Below the pieces are notes generated by a model. It saw only the letters and a list, made by a program, of their open reading frames with translations. It searched no databases and had not been told where the DNA came from. A stretch of DNA of 64,000 nucleotides from Saprospiraceae bacterium (GTDB taxonomy: Bacteria; Bacteroidota; Bacteroidia; Chitinophagales; Saprospiraceae), in the NCBI GenBank assembly GCA_022841745.1, contig JALHQW010000023.1, positions 1-64,000 on the forward strand. The letters are read 5' to 3'. Each line of letters starts with the position of its first letter. Position 1 is the stretch's first letter. A program made the position numbers and the translations under genes. This document shows positions 11,724-17,876 of this stretch, piece by piece.

Positions 11724-12809
11724 CTATGCTTTGCTCACTGCACGATGCTCATTCATCACCTTCGACTGGTGCGCAATGCTCTCCTCATGCACCGCCTTCA
11801 GCAAAGTCTCGATGAACTCCCCGCTCAGCCCCAGCACAGCGCCTTTGGCTACGGCATGTTCCAGAATCTCGTTCCAGCGGGTAGGCTGGTAAATGGAGAT
11901 ATTGTTCGATTTTTTGTACTCCCCAATCTGGTCGGCCAGCTTCATACGAGCGCCGAGGAGTTGAAGCAGCCGCTCGTCAATATCGTCAATCTGGTGGCGC
12001 AGGAAGTCCAGCGATTTCAAGAAGTCGGCGTTGCTCGTCGTCAGCTTGCGGGCCGTGAGGTGGCGGGTCATTTCGCCATAAACCAGGGGCGTTATTTGTT
12101 GCTCGGCGTCGCTCCAAGCTTGGTCTGGTGTTGGGTGCACCTCTGTCATCAGGCCATCGTAGCCAAGGTCAAGGGCTTGCTGCGCAATGGGCGCCAAGAT
12201 GTCCCGCCGCCCGCAGATATGGCTGTGGTCGCAGATGATTTGCAGGTCGGGGAAGTGGCGTTTCAGCTCAATCGGCAACTGCCAGAGCGGGGCGTTCCTG
12301 AACTTAGTCTCGCCATGCACCGAGAAGCCCCGGTGCACCGCCGCTATGCGGGTGATGCCCGCTTTCTGGATGCGCTCGATGGCCCCCATCCACAGCTTTA
12401 GGTCAGCATTTACAGGGTTTTTTATCAAAACGGGGATGTCCACGCCTGACAGCGCATCGGCCACTTCCTGCACCGAAAACGGGTTCACCGTCGTTCGTGC
12501 GCCAATCCAGAGCACGTCCACGCCATACTTCAGCGCCTCGAAAACGTGCTGCGTCGTGGCCACTTCGGTCGTCACGGGCAGACCGACTTCCTGCTTCACT
12601 TTGCGCAGCCAGCCCAGCCCCACCGTGCCCACTCCCTCGAAGCCGCCCGGCTTGGTGCGGGGCTTCCAGATGCCCGCCCGAAAGAGGTCAATACCCTCGG
12701 CCTTCAGCCCGTGGGCGGTCTCCAGTACTTGCGCCTCAGTCTCGGCGCTGCACGGCCCGGCGATGAGTATCGGGCGCTCGATTTTGTCGAAAACAGGTTG
12801 GAATTGCAT
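11724..12809 (-). CDS. Bifunctional DAHP synthase / chorismate mutase
   Basis: This 361-residue fusion joins two shikimate-pathway steps. Residues 1-260 or so form a type I-beta DAHP synthase (first reaction, PEP plus erythrose 4-phosphate). Signatures are LIAGPCSAE, FRAGIWKPRTKPGGFEG, KNPVNADLKLWMGA, AAVHRGFS, CDHSHICG and MTEVHPTPDQAWSDAEQQ. Residues 265-350 or so form an AroQ-type chorismate mutase (FLRHQIDDIDERLLQLLGARMKLADQIGEYKK). The fusion is known in Bacteroidota, where the mutase domain lets prephenate inhibit the synthase. It is the last gene of the aromatic operon; a 280-base repeat-filled gap separates it from tyrA. It should share the attenuated leader if read-through crosses the gaps. 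Confidence 0.95.
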   Translation of the reverse strand: MQFQPVFDKIERPILIAGPCSAETEAQVLETAHGLKAEGIDLFRAGIWKPRTKPGGFEGVGTVGLGWLRKVKQEVGLPVTTEVATTQHVFEALKYGVDVLWIGARTTVNPFSVQEVADALSGVDIPVLIKNPVNADLKLWMGAIERIQKAGITRIAAVHRGFSVHGETKFRNAPLWQLPIELKRHFPDLQIICDHSHICGRRDILAPIAQQALDLGYDGLMTEVHPTPDQAWSDAEQQITPLVYGEMTRHLTARKLTTSNADFLKSLDFLRHQIDDIDERLLQLLGARMKLADQIGEYKKSNNISIYQPTRWNEILEHAVAKGAVLGLSGEFIETLLKAVHEESIAHQSKVMNEHRAVSKA

Positions 12810-13092: not shown

Positions 13093-13938
13093 CTAAGGCA
13101 GTATCCTCCGAATATCGTTGGCCTCCACCATCAACTGCCGGATGGCCTCGAAATCCTTTTTTATCAACAAACTGCGGAAGCGGGACAGCACGCTGATATG
13201 CTCATCCAAAACATCCAGCACGTTGTCTCGGTTTTGGCGGAAAATGGGCGTCCACATCTCCGGCGAGCTTTTCGCCAAGCGCACCGTGGAGGCAAAACCG
13301 CTGCTTGCCAGCTCAAAAATTGCCTGTTCGTCCCGCTCCTTTTCCAGCACCGTCAGCGCCAGTGCGAAGGAACTGATGTGCGAGATATGCGACACGTAAG
13401 CCGTGTGAACATCGTGTTCCTGTCCGTTCAGGTGGGCGATTTTCATGCCCAACGATTGGTACATCCTTTCCACCAGCGCCACGGCATCGGGGCCGCTTTT
13501 TTCCGCTTCGCAAATGACGGTGTACTTCCCCTCGAAGAGCCTCGGAATGGCCGCCTCGATGCCGCTGTGCTCTGTGCCCGCCATCGGGTGCGTGGCCACA
13601 AAGCGGCTGCGGTTTGGCAGCAAACCGACCATCTCCAACAGCCGTTGCTTCGTCGAGCCGACGTCCATCACGACTTGGTTTCTTATTTGGGGCAAAATTT
13701 GGGGCAGTAGCTCCATCGCCACGTCCACGGGCGTCGCCACGATGACAAGGTCGGCCTTTGCCAAGCCCTCGTCCAATTCGCAAACCTCGTCAATGATGCG
13801 GCGGCGCAACGCCTTGTCGAGGCTGGTGCGGCTGGCATCCACCCCGATGACGTGGTCAGCAAAGCCGTTCTCTTTCAAGGAGATGGCCATGCTGCCGCCG
13901 ATGAGTCCGATGCCGATGATGGTTGTGGTCATGTTCAA
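13093..13938 (-). CDS. tyrA: Prephenate dehydrogenase
   Basis: This 281-residue enzyme makes 4-hydroxyphenylpyruvate from prephenate with NAD(P)+, the tyrosine branch. It starts with the dinucleotide-binding loop IIGIGLIGGS. It also has ADLVIVATPVD, VVMDVGSTKQ, FVATHPMAGTEHSG (catalytic His region) and a helical C-terminal dimerisation half. No ACT or chorismate mutase domain is attached; the mutase is on the DAHP synthase. It lies third in the operon, between the aminotransferase and the synthase, with hairpin-rich gaps on both sides. Confidence 0.95.
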   Translation of the reverse strand: MNMTTTIIGIGLIGGSMAISLKENGFADHVIGVDASRTSLDKALRRRIIDEVCELDEGLAKADLVIVATPVDVAMELLPQILPQIRNQVVMDVGSTKQRLLEMVGLLPNRSRFVATHPMAGTEHSGIEAAIPRLFEGKYTVICEAEKSGPDAVALVERMYQSLGMKIAHLNGQEHDVHTAYVSHISHISSFALALTVLEKERDEQAIFELASSGFASTVRLAKSSPEMWTPIFRQNRDNVLDVLDEHISVLSRFRSLLIKKDFEAIRQLMVEANDIRRILP

Positions 13939-14060: not shown

Positions 14061-15236
14061 TTACATGGCAGCCGTTATTTCAACTTTTTTCACCCTTTCA
14101 ATCGCCATTTCAAAAACTGTCTCCTTACTGCACAACGAAATCCGCACATACCCCTCCCCATTCGAGCCGAAAATGCCGCCGGGAGTAATGAAAACATGCG
14201 CCTCATTTAGCAACAAATCCGTCAGCTCATAGCCGCTTTGGTACTGTTCTGGCACCCTCGCCCAAACGAACATGCCAGTAGCTGCCGGGGCGTACTCGCA
14301 GCCGAGCAGGTCAAGCAGTTGGCAGGCTAATTTCCGCCGATTGTTGTAAGTGGCGTTCAGGCTATCGTACCAATCTTGCGAAGCACCCAAGGCCAGCGCC
14401 GCTGCCAATTGCACGGGCTTGAACATACCGCTGTCCATATTGCTCTTGAACCGGACGACATGGCTAAGGTAGTCCGCCCGACCAGCCAGTACGCCGACCC
14501 GCCAGCCCGCAAGATTATGCGACTTACTGAGGGAGTTCAGTTCCAGCGCCACGTCCTTTGCGCCAGCAACGGAAAGCAGGCTCAAGTGGTCGTCGTTCAG
14601 GATGAAACTGTAAGGATTATCATTGACAATCAAGATATTATGCCGTTTGCCAAAGGCAATGAGCTTTTCAAAAAAAGCAGGGCTGGCATGTGTGCCCGTG
14701 GGCATATTGGGGTAGTTCACCCACATTATTTTCGCCCGGCTGAGGTCGGTTTGTTCGAGCGCTTCAAGGTCGGGCAACCAGCTATTTTCGGCGGTCAGCG
14801 GCACTTTCACGACAGTGGCTCCGGCCAGTTCCGAGGCAGCACGATAGGTGGGGTAGCCGGGATTGGGCACGAGTGCCACGTCGCCGGGTTCAAGGAAGGT
14901 CATGGCGATGTGCATGATGCCCTCCTTGGAGCCAATGAGCGGCAGCACCTCGGTCGCAGCATCGAGTTTCACCCCGAAAAACCGCCCATACCAGTCAGCA
15001 AAGGCATTGCGAAGCTCCGGTATGCCCACATAACTCTGGTAGGCATGCACATCGGGCAAGCAGCTTTGCTCGCCGAGCAGCTTGCTCACCTCCGGCAATG
15101 GCGGCAAGTCGGGGCTGCCGATGCCGAGGTTCAGCACGTCAATGCCCTGGCTGCGCATGGCAGCTATTTCCTTGAGTTTTTTTGAAAAATAGTACTCTTG
15201 GATGTTGTCGAGCCGTCGGGCGGGTTGGATTATCAT
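14061..15236 (-). CDS. PLP-dependent aminotransferase, class I/II (aromatic operon)
   Basis: Starting at MIIQPARRLDNIQEYYFSKK the protein is 391 residues; the frame is open further upstream only because of the hairpin repeat. Class I/II features are LGIGSPDLPP, PNPGYPTYR, WVNYPNMPTG, NDNPYSFIL and the Schiff-base lysine in NSLSKSHNLAGWR. Its place between pheA and tyrA suggests that it aminates phenylpyruvate and 4-hydroxyphenylpyruvate, the last step to Phe and Tyr. That role is inferred from context; close relatives also act on aspartate, alanine or diaminopimelate intermediates. Confidence 0.9.
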   Translation of the reverse strand: MIIQPARRLDNIQEYYFSKKLKEIAAMRSQGIDVLNLGIGSPDLPPLPEVSKLLGEQSCLPDVHAYQSYVGIPELRNAFADWYGRFFGVKLDAATEVLPLIGSKEGIMHIAMTFLEPGDVALVPNPGYPTYRAASELAGATVVKVPLTAENSWLPDLEALEQTDLSRAKIMWVNYPNMPTGTHASPAFFEKLIAFGKRHNILIVNDNPYSFILNDDHLSLLSVAGAKDVALELNSLSKSHNLAGWRVGVLAGRADYLSHVVRFKSNMDSGMFKPVQLAAALALGASQDWYDSLNATYNNRRKLACQLLDLLGCEYAPAATGMFVWARVPEQYQSGYELTDLLLNEAHVFITPGGIFGSNGEGYVRISLCSKETVFEMAIERVKKVEITAAM

Positions 15237-15312
15237 TGATTGTTGAAATTGTTTGATTGCTTGATTGTTGTGGTACTGGTTCGTTGTCACGGGTGTCGTT
15301 CTGCTGTGCGTC

Positions 15313-15404
15313 GCTTTTGTCATCTTGAAAAGACCCGTCCACGCCGTAAGGGAAGCCACGTTTGCCCTCACGACGTGGACGGGTCTTTTCAAGATGACAA
15401 AAGC
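15313..15404. repeat. Perfect 31-bp inverted repeat between pheA and the aminotransferase
   Basis: Arms 15313-15343 and 15374-15404 are exact complements, with a 30-base loop. Outer ends read GCTTTTGTCAT and inner ends GGACGGGTC. Transcribed RNA would form a very stable stem inside the operon message. It has no T run, so it is unlikely to be a simple terminator. A single-armed ATTGTTGAAATTG tract sits at 15238-15275 beside it. Confidence 0.9.
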
Positions 15405-15438
15405 GGCGTGTTCCGAGACGTACACCGTGACGTGGCCG

Positions 15439-16332
15439 CTACTCAAAAAACCTCCCCTGCCGATACGCCCCCAGCACCTCCAAGCTATGCGTAAAGGGCC
15501 TAATCGCCTCCACTGCCGACTGCCAATTAGCACCTTCTTCATTGACGAAGTCAACAAAAAAGAAGTATTCCCAAGGCCGACCCTCAATGGGGGCGGATTG
15601 GATTTTCGTCAGGTTGGCTCCGTGGGCGGCGAGGGCGGCAAGCACCTTGTGCAGGCTACCAACCTCGTGCGAGAGCGAGAAAAACAGGGACACTTTGTCC
15701 GCTGCAACGATGGACTCGGTAACCTCTTGGCGCTCCAGCACGAGGAAGCGGGTGAAGTTCTGCTTATTCGTTTCGATGCTCTCGGCGAGCAGGTCGAGGC
15801 CGTACATGCTGGCGGCAAGGCTGCTGGCGATGGCACCGACGCCTTTGAGCTGTTGATGCGCAATGCGCTGGGCGCTGAGGGCGGTGTCCTCCATTTCCAC
15901 GAGGCGGATATCGGGGTGCTGCGCAAAGAACTCGTCGCACTGGGCGATGGCGATGGGGTGCGAGTGGACTTCCTTCAAGTCCTCAATACGCTGGCCGGGC
16001 AGCGCCATCAGGTTCTGCCGGATGCGCAGATAGACCTCCCCGACGGCCCGCAGCTTGCTGGCCGTGAGCAGCCGGTAATTGCTGATGATGCTGCCATAAA
16101 TGGTGTTCTCGATGGCCATGAGGCCAGTGTCGGCAGTGCCGCTCTCCACCTGCTCGACGAGTTGGCGGAAGGTGTGTGCCGGCACGATTTCCACCCGGTC
16201 GGCGCCGAAGAAATGCCGTGCGGCGATGTCGTGGAAGGCACCCGGCACACCTTGGATGGCGACCCGCAGCTTTGGCTGTGCCTTGCTGACGGCAGTGGCC
16301 TCGGTTTCGATACTTGTTTCTATTGTGGTCAT
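15439..16332 (-). CDS. pheA: Prephenate dehydratase with ACT domain
   Basis: This 297-residue enzyme converts prephenate to phenylpyruvate. I chose the ATG at 16332; a TTG two codons upstream (16338) is also open. The catalytic domain covers about residues 24-200: AIQGVPGAFHDIAARHFFG, IENTIYGSIISNYRLL, and a Thr-rich NFTRFLVL that matches the family TRF motif. The C-terminal ACT domain (SLFFSLSHEVGSLHKVLAAL, then IQSAPIEGRPWEYFFFVDF) should bind Phe for feedback. It is the first gene of the operon and lies 19 bases downstream of attenuator terminator 2. Expression is therefore likely set by the two leader attenuators upstream. Confidence 0.95.
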   Translation of the reverse strand: MTTIETSIETEATAVSKAQPKLRVAIQGVPGAFHDIAARHFFGADRVEIVPAHTFRQLVEQVESGTADTGLMAIENTIYGSIISNYRLLTASKLRAVGEVYLRIRQNLMALPGQRIEDLKEVHSHPIAIAQCDEFFAQHPDIRLVEMEDTALSAQRIAHQQLKGVGAIASSLAASMYGLDLLAESIETNKQNFTRFLVLERQEVTESIVAADKVSLFFSLSHEVGSLHKVLAALAAHGANLTKIQSAPIEGRPWEYFFFVDFVNEEGANWQSAVEAIRPFTHSLEVLGAYRQGRFFE

Positions 16333-16351
16333 TTTCAATTATTTATAAAAC

Positions 16352-16378
16352 AAAAAAGCCCCGACACTGCGGGGCTTT
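16352..16378 (-). terminator. Attenuator terminator 2 of the pheA leader
   Basis: On the minus strand a 9-bp perfect stem (16378-16370 with 16363-16355, AAAGCCCCG with CGGGGCTTT, six-base loop) runs straight into six T. It ends only 19 bases before the pheA start. Its 5' arm can instead pair with GGGGACTTT at 16417-16409, at the stop codon of leader peptide 2, with one bulged A. The two structures exclude each other. Confidence 0.9.
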
Positions 16379-16416
16379 CGTTTTTCTTTTTCACAAAAAA
16401 GCAAACCAAAAGTCCC

Positions 16417-16476
16417 CTAAGGTGTACCCCAGAAAAAATAGAAACCCCAGAAAAAGGAAGCTTGGTTAGGTGACAT
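16417..16476 (-). CDS. Aromatic leader peptide 2 (attenuator)
   Basis: A 19-codon frame encodes MSPNQASFFWGFYFFWGTP, with five Phe, two Trp and one Tyr packed into residues 8-16. Eight of nineteen residues being aromatic, placed directly before a terminator and an aromatic biosynthesis operon, fits a ribosome-sensing leader peptide. The stop codon TAG begins the GGGGACTTT antiterminator strand. A ribosome that finishes the peptide would cover that strand and let terminator 2 form. A ribosome stalled on Phe codons would leave it free. There is no Shine-Dalgarno, as usual in this phylum. Confidence 0.8.
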   Translation of the reverse strand: MSPNQASFFWGFYFFWGTP

Positions 16477-16527
16477 GGCTGCGAATTTGGTCTCAGGTTT
16501 CAAGGGTTTCAGGTTTCAGGAACTAGC

Positions 16528-16553
16528 AAAAAAAAAGCCCCGCAAGCGGGACT
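16528..16553 (-). terminator. Attenuator terminator 1 of the pheA leader
   Basis: On the minus strand AGTCCCGC (16553-16546) pairs with GCGGGGCT (16543-16536), one G-U included, followed by a run of nine T. Its 5' arm is also complementary, over 7 bases with one G-U, to CGGGGCT at 16604-16598, which immediately follows the stop codon of leader peptide 1. That provides a competing antiterminator. Confidence 0.85.
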
Positions 16554-16604
16554 CTTTGATTTTATCTTCAAACCTGTTTTGAACAACAAAATGTTTTAGC
16601 CCCG

Positions 16605-16661
16605 TTACGATTGACCGTAAAAGTAAAAGCTAAACCAAAAATTGTTCGGATACAGGTTCAT
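16605..16661 (-). CDS. Aromatic leader peptide 1 (attenuator)
   Basis: An 18-codon frame encodes MNLYPNNFWFSFYFYGQS, with four Phe, three Tyr and one Trp. The TAA stop is immediately followed by CGGGGCT, the putative antiterminator strand for terminator 1. A TAAGTTTG promoter element lies 19 bases upstream, so this is probably the first frame of the operon transcript. It differs in sequence from leader peptide 2 but has the same size, composition and arrangement. Confidence 0.8.
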   Translation of the reverse strand: MNLYPNNFWFSFYFYGQS

Positions 16662-16680
16662 ATTGACTTCAATTATGCGA

Positions 16681-16712
16681 CAAACTTAAAGGCAAAAAGA
16701 ACACGGCGCAAG
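16681..16712 (-). promoter_or_regulatory. Promoter of the aromatic operon
   Basis: On the minus strand TAAGTTTG (16688-16681) matches the Bacteroidota -7 consensus TAnnTTTG exactly. CTTG (16712-16709) lies 20 bases upstream, an acceptable -33 element. Transcription would start about 5-8 bases further on, giving a leader of about 340 bases before pheA that contains both attenuators. Confidence 0.6.
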
Positions 16713-16731: not shown

Positions 16732-16768
16732 AAAAAATCTCCTCAATAGTGCAAGGCAAATTGAGGGG
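16732..16768 (-). terminator. Terminator after the Cys-rich lipoprotein gene
   Basis: CCTCAAT (16766-16760 on the minus strand) pairs with ATTGAGG (16747-16741), and six T follow shortly after. It separates the Cys-rich protein gene from the aromatic operon promoter. The opposite strand also ends in a T run, so it may work both ways. Confidence 0.65.
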
Positions 16769-16805: not shown

Positions 16806-17519
16806 TCAATCCCAACAACAGGCTGTTGAACCTGAACACTGTACTGTACAACTGTTTCCACCTACCGAAAGAGAACAACCTGTAGCACCCGTGCCTCCAG
16901 CATCGCATGATTCACTTGCTACATTATTACACGCAGTGCTAGATATGCCAGTGACACAGCATGCACAGCTTAATTCTTGACCACCACCCTCGCCACCCTC
17001 ACCACGGAAGATGATTTCTGGTTTGGGGGTCAGGTGCTTAATCAGCCCCATTTCGTTCAAAAATTCACTGCCAAAAGCAATTGAAGATAGGCTTGACATT
17101 TTTGTGTCATCCAATGAATAAATGAATTTGAACTCGTCTTTCAAGGATGCAACAACTATTGTTCTATGGAAAAATATCATCTCAATTTCACTGAAATCCC
17201 TGTTCTTTAGTGCCTTCAAAATGATGTCGTAATTCTCGCTCTTGGGCTGCAAAACATAGTGAAGGAATTTACCTTCTTTAGCACCTTCCAACGAAAAAGC
17301 AATCATTTCAGAACCAACATCCAATGTTGCACTTCCTTTGTAGTACTCGGCTTTTTCTTCCGGCAATAATTTACCTGCGTTATAGTCGGCGACTATTTTT
17401 TCCGCATCAGGTATGCCAGATTGTACTAATAGGGGTTCACTTACCGTACAGGCTACATAAACCAACAAGAACAGGCCTAAGAGTAGGCTTGAGAGTTTGA
17501 GAAAATTGCGTTGTTTCAT
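16806..17519 (-). CDS. Lipoprotein-like protein with a cysteine-rich C-terminal tail
   Basis: Starting at MKQRNFLKLS the protein is 237 residues. A hydrophobic signal ends VYVAC (Cys24), a weak lipobox. A mixed middle domain has no motif I recognise. Then a Gly-Glu-rich hinge (GEGGEGGGQ) leads to about 55 residues with ten Cys, including SCACC near the start of the tail and ACCWD at the very end. This looks like an exported carrier joined to a disulfide-rich or modifiable tail. No modification or export gene is adjacent. It has its own TAnnTTTG promoter and terminator. The gene is AT-rich. An upstream start at 17591 would add 24 residues before the signal and is rejected. Confidence 0.75.
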   Translation of the reverse strand: MKQRNFLKLSSLLLGLFLLVYVACTVSEPLLVQSGIPDAEKIVADYNAGKLLPEEKAEYYKGSATLDVGSEMIAFSLEGAKEGKFLHYVLQPKSENYDIILKALKNRDFSEIEMIFFHRTIVVASLKDEFKFIYSLDDTKMSSLSSIAFGSEFLNEMGLIKHLTPKPEIIFRGEGGEGGGQELSCACCVTGISSTACNNVASESCDAGGTGATGCSLSVGGNSCTVQCSGSTACCWD

Positions 17520-17556
17520 TTTACAATTTTTTAATGGGTTAAAAAAAATATGTTTA

Positions 17557-17587
17557 CAAAGATAGGATTTTGCAAAATAAGTAACAA
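17557..17587 (-). promoter_or_regulatory. Promoter of the Cys-rich lipoprotein gene
   Basis: On the minus strand TATCTTTG (17564-17557) fits TAnnTTTG exactly, with TTG (17587-17585) 20 bases upstream as the -33 element. The coding start follows 38 bases downstream. Confidence 0.65.
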
Positions 17588-17876
17588 CCAATAACTTATA
17601 CAGTGAAGTGTATTGTTTATAAAACAGCGTTTATTTCAAAATAAAACACTAAAGCCAATATACAAGAATGGATAGCTCAATACAAAAAGTTGTATTTTCT
17701 TATTTTACAATCACCTATTTTTATTGACAACTTGTTTCGCTCTGCCCTTTTGAGTGAATTTAAATGCAAATGAATGTATATCGAACAAGAGTTTTGACAA
17801 AAAAATCATATGCACTTATGATTGAAAAATGCTGGCAGTCCACATAAAGGGATTTGTTCCGAGTTTTTCTAACACC
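17588..17876. other. AT-rich gap upstream of the Cys-rich lipoprotein
   Basis: This stretch is strongly AT-rich and has no coding frame that I would support. It lies between the 3' end of the TPR gene and the lipoprotein promoter. No clear terminator hairpin is visible. Confidence 0.5.

Follow-up and report, generated by a model that had tools for sequence, protein, structure and literature searches.

Two ribosome-mediated transcription attenuators, arranged in series and sensing phenylalanine and tyrosine, very probably stand before pheA in the Saprospiraceae bacterium studied here; the whole stretch of DNA that was analysed, called the window below, has a length of 64,000 nucleotides. Leader-peptide attenuation of amino-acid operons is well known and in its textbook form consists of a single switch. 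In the E. coli pheL/pheA attenuator, a Phe-rich leader peptide is followed by an antiterminator and a terminator that exclude each other before pheA. In the pheA leader of the window, a single promoter upstream of unit 1 would make the leader transcript, and in each unit a ribosome would translate a short peptide rich in Phe and Tyr. When charged tRNA runs short, the ribosome would stall at a Phe or Tyr codon and leave free a strand that begins about 12 nt past the last aromatic codon, in most cases at the stop codon. This free strand would then pair with the nascent 5' arm of the terminator, allowing the RNA polymerase to continue, and the polymerase would need to pass through both units in order to reach pheA. 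When relatives are compared, the scheme is supported by its components, by pairings that exclude each other, by the spacing and by a promoter motif found before unit 1 only; from these we infer that transcription would terminate at both sites, respond to starvation, depend on a kinetic folding order and yield a multiplied output.

On the minus strand, the region from 16712 to 16332 reads, in order, as a promoter box, ORF1, a first antiterminator strand, terminator 1, ORF2, a second strand, terminator 2 and then pheA. The promoter (16681-16711), which we take to be of the Bacteroidota type, is composed of a TTG at 16711-16709 and of TAAGTTTG at 16688-16681, separated by a 20-nt spacer. ORF1 (16605-16661) encodes the leader peptide MNLYPNNFWFSFYFYGQS, ends on a TAA stop codon and has similar peptides in relatives. 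Its stop codon adjoins the strand CGGGGCT (16598-16604), which was assigned as the antiterminator strand from its pairing with the 5' arm of terminator 1, from covariation and from the fold. The predicted antiterminator hairpin of unit 1 (16547-16604) has an outer 7-bp helix and an inner A/T-rich helix, with an energy of -18.5 kcal/mol for 16546-16604 (z -4.1) and of -18.1 kcal/mol in a second computation. The intrinsic terminator of this unit (16528-16557), detected by a terminator scan and by folding (-13.8 kcal/mol), covers 16557-16532 and carries a T9 tract at 16536-16528.

Unit 2 is built in the same order. ORF2 (16417-16476), again with similar peptides in relatives, encodes MSPNQASFFWGFYFFWGTP and ends on a TAG stop codon, the G of which is common to the putative antiterminator strand GGGGACTTT (16409-16417), assigned from the same three kinds of evidence with the 5' arm of terminator 2. 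The predicted antiterminator hairpin lies at 16370-16417 (-17.8 kcal/mol, z -3.6) and the intrinsic terminator at 16352-16379 (-15.5 kcal/mol by terminator scan and fold), the latter being composed of 16379-16354 and of a T6 tract at 16357-16352. The initial annotation had described a promoter, two short frames, two strands and two terminators with T9 and T6 tracts, and all of them were recovered at these positions on the minus strand.

The genes downstream are all carried by the minus strand. First, pheA (15439-16332) codes for a prephenate dehydratase with an ACT domain (PF00800, 2e-56; PF01842, 1.7e-9) and starts at the ATG at 16332, an in-frame TTG being present at 16338. It is followed by the ORF of a class I/II aminotransferase (14061-15587; PF00155, 4.7e-61, residues 150-498), which as listed overlaps pheA and has its true start inside the listed frame, by tyrA, coding for prephenate dehydrogenase (13093-13938; PF02153, 4.6e-33; PF20463, 1e-22), and by a DAHP synthase with chorismate mutase (11724-12809; PF00793, 9.2e-41; PF01817, 3.6e-25). 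Together, these genes are an operon for phenylalanine and tyrosine.

Ahead of the promoter, a hairpin with a T tract (16732-16768, minus strand), read from the sequence and absent from the terminator scan list, would end the upstream gene. The upstream ORF (16806-17591, minus strand) has a lipoprotein-like start and a cysteine-rich end, and gave no Pfam match at E 0.001. The stretch between the two units contains at 16489-16520 (locus L002) a repeat of CCTGAAACC-type words, and a 33-nt stretch of this region has a 94% match elsewhere in the same genome (C14:78062-78094). Similar repeats of the AAACTC type were seen in the inter-unit gap of genomes G011 and G012.

The gene pheA was sought in 60 relatives, giving 33 matches, and in 199 genomes of the family, giving 139 matches. 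These searches provided 151 upstream regions, of which 143 belong to the family and 8 to the order, the family matches G075, G175, G207, G209 and G215, in which pheA was partial or close to a contig end, being left out. A unit was defined as a frame of 8 to 45 codons with at least five aromatic residues in ten near its end, followed by a terminator within 140 nt. In a uniform scan, at least one unit was found in 118 of the 151 upstream regions versus 4 of the 151 reverse complements. Applied to the last 400 nt, this same scan detected a unit in 114 of 144 real sequences, versus 6 of 1440 dinucleotide shuffles.

A second rule allowed imperfect terminator stems, the shuffle control belonging to the first, stricter one. 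Among the 140 family regions of at least 300 nt, this second rule detected two units in 53, a single unit in 74 and no unit in 13, so that 127 have at least one. Genomes G063 and G173, which enter the earlier scans and tests as lacking a unit, have one and two units, respectively, in this count. The order member G055, the first unit of which is doubtful, was treated as tandem in the pairing, promoter, composition, tree and peptide-identity sets and omitted from the 140 regions. A third unit in G010, G014 and G100 is an overlapping frame and was judged spurious, and G332, with its second unit far upstream, was excluded from the tandem count. A short ORF with many codons for the amino acids made by the operon recurs in relatives for both units, and an intrinsic terminator between the leader ORF and the first gene was identified by sequence and fold in 180 units. 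Conservation of both frames, of their aromatic codons and of both stems had been put forward as a check on the initial annotation; all were found to recur in relatives, and the loss of aromatic codons that would have counted against it was not encountered.

In order to compare each stop-codon region with its terminator, the duplex formed with its own 5' terminator arm was set against duplexes formed with permuted arms in the 180 units (2000 permutations). The own pairing amounted to -11.4 versus -8.6 kcal/mol for permuted arms in unit 1 (53 units), -9.8 versus -7.9 kcal/mol in unit 2 (53 units) and -9.0 versus -6.5 kcal/mol in single units (74 units), and in each class none of the 2000 permutations was as good. 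When distinct arms were counted once (26 for unit 1, 28 for unit 2 and 55 for single units), the own pairing was still better than all permutations, which do not fully remove the relatedness of the sequences. Furthermore, the complementarity to the arm rose to a sharp peak in those 14-nt windows that begin 4 to 0 nt ahead of the first base after the stop codon. Since the own pairing exceeded every permutation and peaked at the stop codon, the three strands appear to vary together in both units. With the reservation that relatedness is not fully removed, this covariation in each unit class points to an antiterminator that shares an arm with the terminator and is kept by selection. The complementarity between the strand at the stop codon and the 5' arm, noted at the outset for this genome, is thus upheld for both units.

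Pairing between the two units was also evaluated, namely the 3' arm of terminator 1 with the 5' arm of terminator 2, and each antiterminator strand with the arm of the other unit. For these three combinations, 10, 9 and 21 of 500 permutations were as good, versus 0 of 500 for the cognate pairing of both units. On this basis, cross-talk between the units is no more than possible, the pairing being only slightly above that of permuted arms, explicable by relatedness alone and weaker than the cognate one. In 28 of the 53 tandem leaders, the 3' arm of terminator 1 could pair with the 5' arm of terminator 2 at -9 kcal/mol or better.

The position of the strand was then measured relative to the coding frame in 225 units (from the family, the order and the class, with four from other classes), 206 of which had a duplex of -8 kcal/mol or better. 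In these 206 units, the distance from the last aromatic codon to the start of the strand had a median of 12 nt (interquartile range 9-13, sd 3.4). The distance from the strand to the stop codon was far more variable (sd 10.1), and permuted strand positions gave a spacing sd of 8.7. A fraction of 0.893 of the units fell within 7-15 nt of the last aromatic codon, versus 0.434 after permutation (maximum 0.544), and distances of 6 nt or less were rarer than in permuted positions (0.063 versus 0.348). The spacing was taken to the nearest upstream aromatic codon, which favours short distances, and the permutation is equally biased.

In 130 of the 206 units, no more than 6 nt separated the start of the strand from the end of the stop codon. 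In the other 76, it started more than 6 nt ahead of this point, within the frame, and 68 of these 76 still kept at least 6 nt to the last aromatic codon. The remaining 8 early strands pair within the aromatic codons and were taken as wrong picks of a wide strand search; among them, unit 2 of G006 and of G011 had the usual stop-codon strand in an earlier scan. Beyond the codon in its A site, a ribosome covers roughly another 10-12 nt. Given this footprint and a spacing of about 12 nt, the strand would just become free whichever aromatic codon the ribosome stalled at. The geometry therefore fits ribosome-mediated attenuation, in which a stalled ribosome would free the strand and a ribosome at the stop codon would cover it.

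In the window, the predicted antiterminator hairpins (-18.5 and -17.8 kcal/mol) are more stable than the corresponding terminators (-13.8 and -15.5 kcal/mol). Over all units, the average antiterminator hairpin alone had -15.9 versus -15.2 kcal/mol for the terminator and was at least as stable in 115 of 206 units; its inner part was more stable than shuffled sequences (-3.2 versus -2.2). The 225 units were also examined with an equilibrium folding model in which the bases under the ribosome are barred from pairing. The mean probability of the terminator was 0.90 without a ribosome; when one was placed on the first aromatic codon, the last aromatic codon or the stop codon, it was 0.83, 0.88 and 0.98, respectively. 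Between the last aromatic codon and the stop codon, the terminator changed by more than 0.3 in 27 of the 225 units, and in 2 units the change was in reverse. In most of the 225 units, equilibrium folding thus displayed no ribosome-dependent switch, the terminator dominating at any ribosome position. In the window itself, this model gave no switch for unit 2, and for unit 1 it gave one only when the ribosome sat on the first aromatic codon. Equilibrium folding was not taken as a proof of switching, and the switch would have to be kinetic, set by the order of cotranscriptional folding. Attenuators are generally held to work by folding order during transcription.

Which amino acids are sensed by each unit was deduced from the peptide composition. 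In this genome, unit 1 contains three Tyr and one Trp and unit 2 one Tyr and two Trp, and the initial annotation had accordingly seen a Tyr-rich first unit and a Trp-rich second one that could respond to different amino acids. The difference is real in this genome, but it is not conserved. In the 53 tandem genomes, the Tyr share of the aromatic residues was 0.377 in unit 1 versus 0.394 in unit 2 (p 0.43), and Trp was present in 14 of 53 unit 1 peptides and 16 of 53 unit 2 peptides. An AND gate of separate signals, with Tyr sensed by unit 1 and Trp or Phe by unit 2, could draw on a slight excess of Trp in unit 2, the longer of the two (0.13 residues per peptide, p 0.008), but it is unit 2, not unit 1, that has slightly more Tyr (0.42 per peptide, p 0.024). 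In addition, the Trp codons of unit 2 of the window are Tyr or Phe codons in some near relatives, and separate Trp-rich leaders stand upstream of trpE in this genome and in the sampled relatives. Sensing of a different amino acid by each unit is quite improbable and not supported, given the equal share of Tyr and the scarcity of Trp in both peptides over the 53 tandem genomes; most likely, to judge from these compositions, both units would sense Phe and Tyr together.

Codon differences were counted among eight close relatives, using for each unit the 11 of 28 pairs in which the lengths were equal, and amounted to 14 synonymous versus 57 nonsynonymous differences in unit 1 and 35 versus 53 in unit 2. 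Taken alone, these counts are no proof that the leaders are coding; that case is made by the other tests. Proline directly preceded the stop codon in 24 unit 1 and 29 unit 2 peptides (of 53 each) and in 73 of 183 units overall; slow release at such stop codons may keep the strand covered for longer.

The leaders of two other amino-acid operons were inspected in the same way. In the genome of the window, the trpE leader (locus L262, contig C73) encodes ...QNWWWQFK... (MTSTSKFQPNATAQNWWWQFKEPDFRG) and has one terminator, as a single Trp attenuator, and the hisG leader (L263, C22) encodes ...VHVHHHHFY... (MKNIVHVHHHHFYSPPAGEQTCF), likewise with one terminator, as a single His attenuator. For leuA of this genome, the scan found no leader. 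In the family, the best-scoring 30 trp loci (L336 and L337-L365) of the 59 out of 61 genomes with a match gave 26 single leaders, 4 in which none was found and no tandem. The best-scoring 30 his loci (L307-L335 among them) of the 33 out of 61 genomes with a match gave 22 single leaders, 8 in which none was found (one with 175 nt only) and no tandem. In each of these samples, 12 genomes have a tandem pheA leader; a single trp leader was detected in 11 of the 12 and none in the remaining one, and a single his leader in all 12. The sampled trp and his leaders being never tandem, doubling was seen at pheA only among the three operons.

The Bacteroid-trp motif (RF01692), a trp leader, was not among 40 matches at E up to 10 on the pheA leader and gave no gathering match on the trpE locus of this genome. 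It has been presented as a cis-regulatory motif in Bacteroidetes (PMC2864571, in the part of the text consulted). At gathering score, Rfam returned no family on the window and, on nine chosen loci, a single match to Flavo-1, far from the leader. This Flavo-1 RNA (RF01705, 85 bits) belongs to a member of the class, where it occupies the minus strand of L260:554-633 and precedes the pheA match by about 870 nt.

Beyond the family, pheA was found in 215 of 247 genomes of the phylum, and 63 upstream regions were taken as a non-random sample made of 23 best-match loci and 40 loci picked across genera. A unit was present in 4 of 4 regions from the order (all single), 31 of 34 from the class and 4 of 25 from other classes. 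The eight order members taken earlier included two with a unit (one being the doubtful G055) and six with none, one of these having 111 nt only. The only tandems accepted in this sample belong to two genomes of one genus (G393 and G301; loci L235 and L247). They come from another family of the class, their terminator arms are unlike those of the window, and the doubling may be independent.

The history of the doubling was approached through the peptides themselves. In 54 tandem genomes from 32 genera, G055 included, 87 of the 108 unit peptides were matched by a peptide of the same unit in another genus; in a permutation form, 85 of 108 nearest neighbours agreed, and 2000 label swaps reached at most 76. 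This persistence of unit identity across genera suggests that the doubling is probably old and that unit 1 and unit 2 have been kept distinct. A tree of pheA comprised 67 rows, 35 of them tandem and 32 single, with rows without a unit, rows with cut contigs and several class loci omitted; on it the tandem label changed 14 times versus 22.5 times when shuffled, strong branches forcing 5 of the 14 changes. In the main family clade, 31 of 42 rows are tandem. Some rows labelled single (for example G033 and G067) do possess a second peptide, the terminator of which failed the rule.

A rival explanation is that only one unit works and the other is a remnant of duplication. The 74 of 140 family regions with one unit agree with it, as does locus L013, which has a single unit-1-like unit and the same-genus tree sister of which, L011, has two; indeed, some single-unit rows look like losses of one unit. 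Against a remnant, however, peptide, terminator and strand are kept by both units in 53 family genomes, unit 1 and unit 2 each pass the permutation tests, and their identities persist between genera beyond any label swap. We regard a non-working copy as quite improbable.

The series arrangement was further supported by the distribution of the motif TANNTTTG. In 47 of the 53 tandem leaders, versus 4.0 in shuffled sequences, the 90 nt preceding unit 1 contained it, the median distance to the start codon being 20 nt. None of the 53 stretches that separate terminator 1 from unit 2, which average 33 nt, contained it, versus 1.4 expected. A start of transcription between the units would contradict the series arrangement proposed in the initial annotation; it was sought by means of this motif, and the count of zero gave no sign of it. 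The variable length of the stretch between terminator 1 and unit 2 (11 to 68 nt, 5th to 95th percentile) would suit a promoter of its own for each unit, producing alternative leaders instead of a series, but the contrast between these two counts, which concern this promoter type only, makes it very improbable. Finally, that the hairpins are ordinary terminators or protein- or tRNA-sensing elements with incidental aromatic frames has hardly any probability left, for although terminators by themselves are frequent, Phe and Tyr codons are favoured in T/A-rich DNA and nonsynonymous differences outnumber synonymous ones in both leaders of close relatives, the shuffles that keep composition almost never produced a unit (6/1440), the sampled trp and his leaders of the family carry Trp and His instead, and Rfam yielded no family at gathering score for the window.

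A pair of ribosome-sensing attenuators acting in series, as put forward in the initial annotation, thus agrees with the recurrence, the covariation, the spacing and the promoter motif found before unit 1 only; most units have no equilibrium switch. Further points that speak against this reading are the 13 of 140 family regions without a unit and the synonymous changes, which are not dominant in the eight close relatives.

Phe_leader (RF01859), the family of the E. coli pheL/pheA attenuator, was the best-scoring Rfam family on the minus strand for both units, with 31.1 and 25.2 bits, and its gathering score of 55 was not reached. On unit 2, the match spans the part from stop codon to terminator, not the ORF. 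The E. coli leader has one unit with a Phe-rich peptide, whereas the pheA leader described here has two units with Phe and Tyr codons and belongs to another phylum. In the open-licence literature, as covered by the listed titles and starts of abstracts, no like-for-like tandem amino-acid attenuators were found described; the like-for-like tandem would be what is new here, leader-peptide attenuation itself being known.

A comparable arrangement is that of Salmonella mgtCBR, where, according to the portion of the article consulted, one transcript has two short leader ORFs, each of which controls transcription of the operon (PMC3641672). As presented there, the signals differ (ATP and proline) and act additively, and the stem-loops are unlike intrinsic terminators, whereas here two like units each have an intrinsic terminator (PMC3641672). 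Different signals, as in mgtCBR, are not what the 53 tandem genomes suggest, both units having the same Tyr share and little Trp. The same portion mentions the B. clausii metE tandem riboswitches, with two regulatory RNAs and two terminators in series; unlike the pheA leader, they sense two different metabolites directly and have no leader peptide (PMC3641672). In the rimP leader of some Gammaproteobacteria, a second terminator stands in tandem and the upstream one has a potential antiterminator (PMC2965389). This resembles the two terminators in series seen here, but the gene and the phylum are different and the excerpt consulted mentions no leader peptide (PMC2965389). Closer in phylogeny, strong clues for leader-peptide attenuation of amino-acid biosynthesis operons have been outlined in Flavobacterium psychrophilum (PMC9723704). 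This organism too is a member of the Bacteroidota with leader peptides upstream, and neither tandem units nor pheA are mentioned in the part of that article consulted (PMC9723704).

As for the reason of the doubling, it is possible, and we propose it tentatively, that two units in series evolved for sensitivity and lower leak where the sensed codons are common. In the part of the theoretical work consulted, attenuation is hypersensitive partly owing to the rarity of the sensed codons, and in the model of Elf and Ehrenberg early release of the ribosome at the stop codon is a source of leak (PMC1183508). In eight proteins of the window, Phe amounts to 4.8% and Tyr to 3.6% of the residues (8.4% together), and Trp to 1.5% and His to 2.3%. 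Since rare codons give hypersensitivity and Phe and Tyr are common, this could explain why pheA is the doubled operon; early release being a leak, two units in series should cut it and add sensitivity. If this is true, two units would restore the sensitivity lost to common codons.

The pheA leader thus appears to be a case in which a whole switch was duplicated in series, with copies that stay distinguishable over many genera, while the sampled trp and his leaders of the family keep one. It extends leader-peptide attenuation in a group little described in the open-licence literature, with a two-strand design and a measurable spacing rule on the scale of the ribosome. As nature offers some fifty tandem leaders and some seventy single ones before the same gene, the benefit of series attenuation, whether lower leak, a steeper response or both, is open to experiment.
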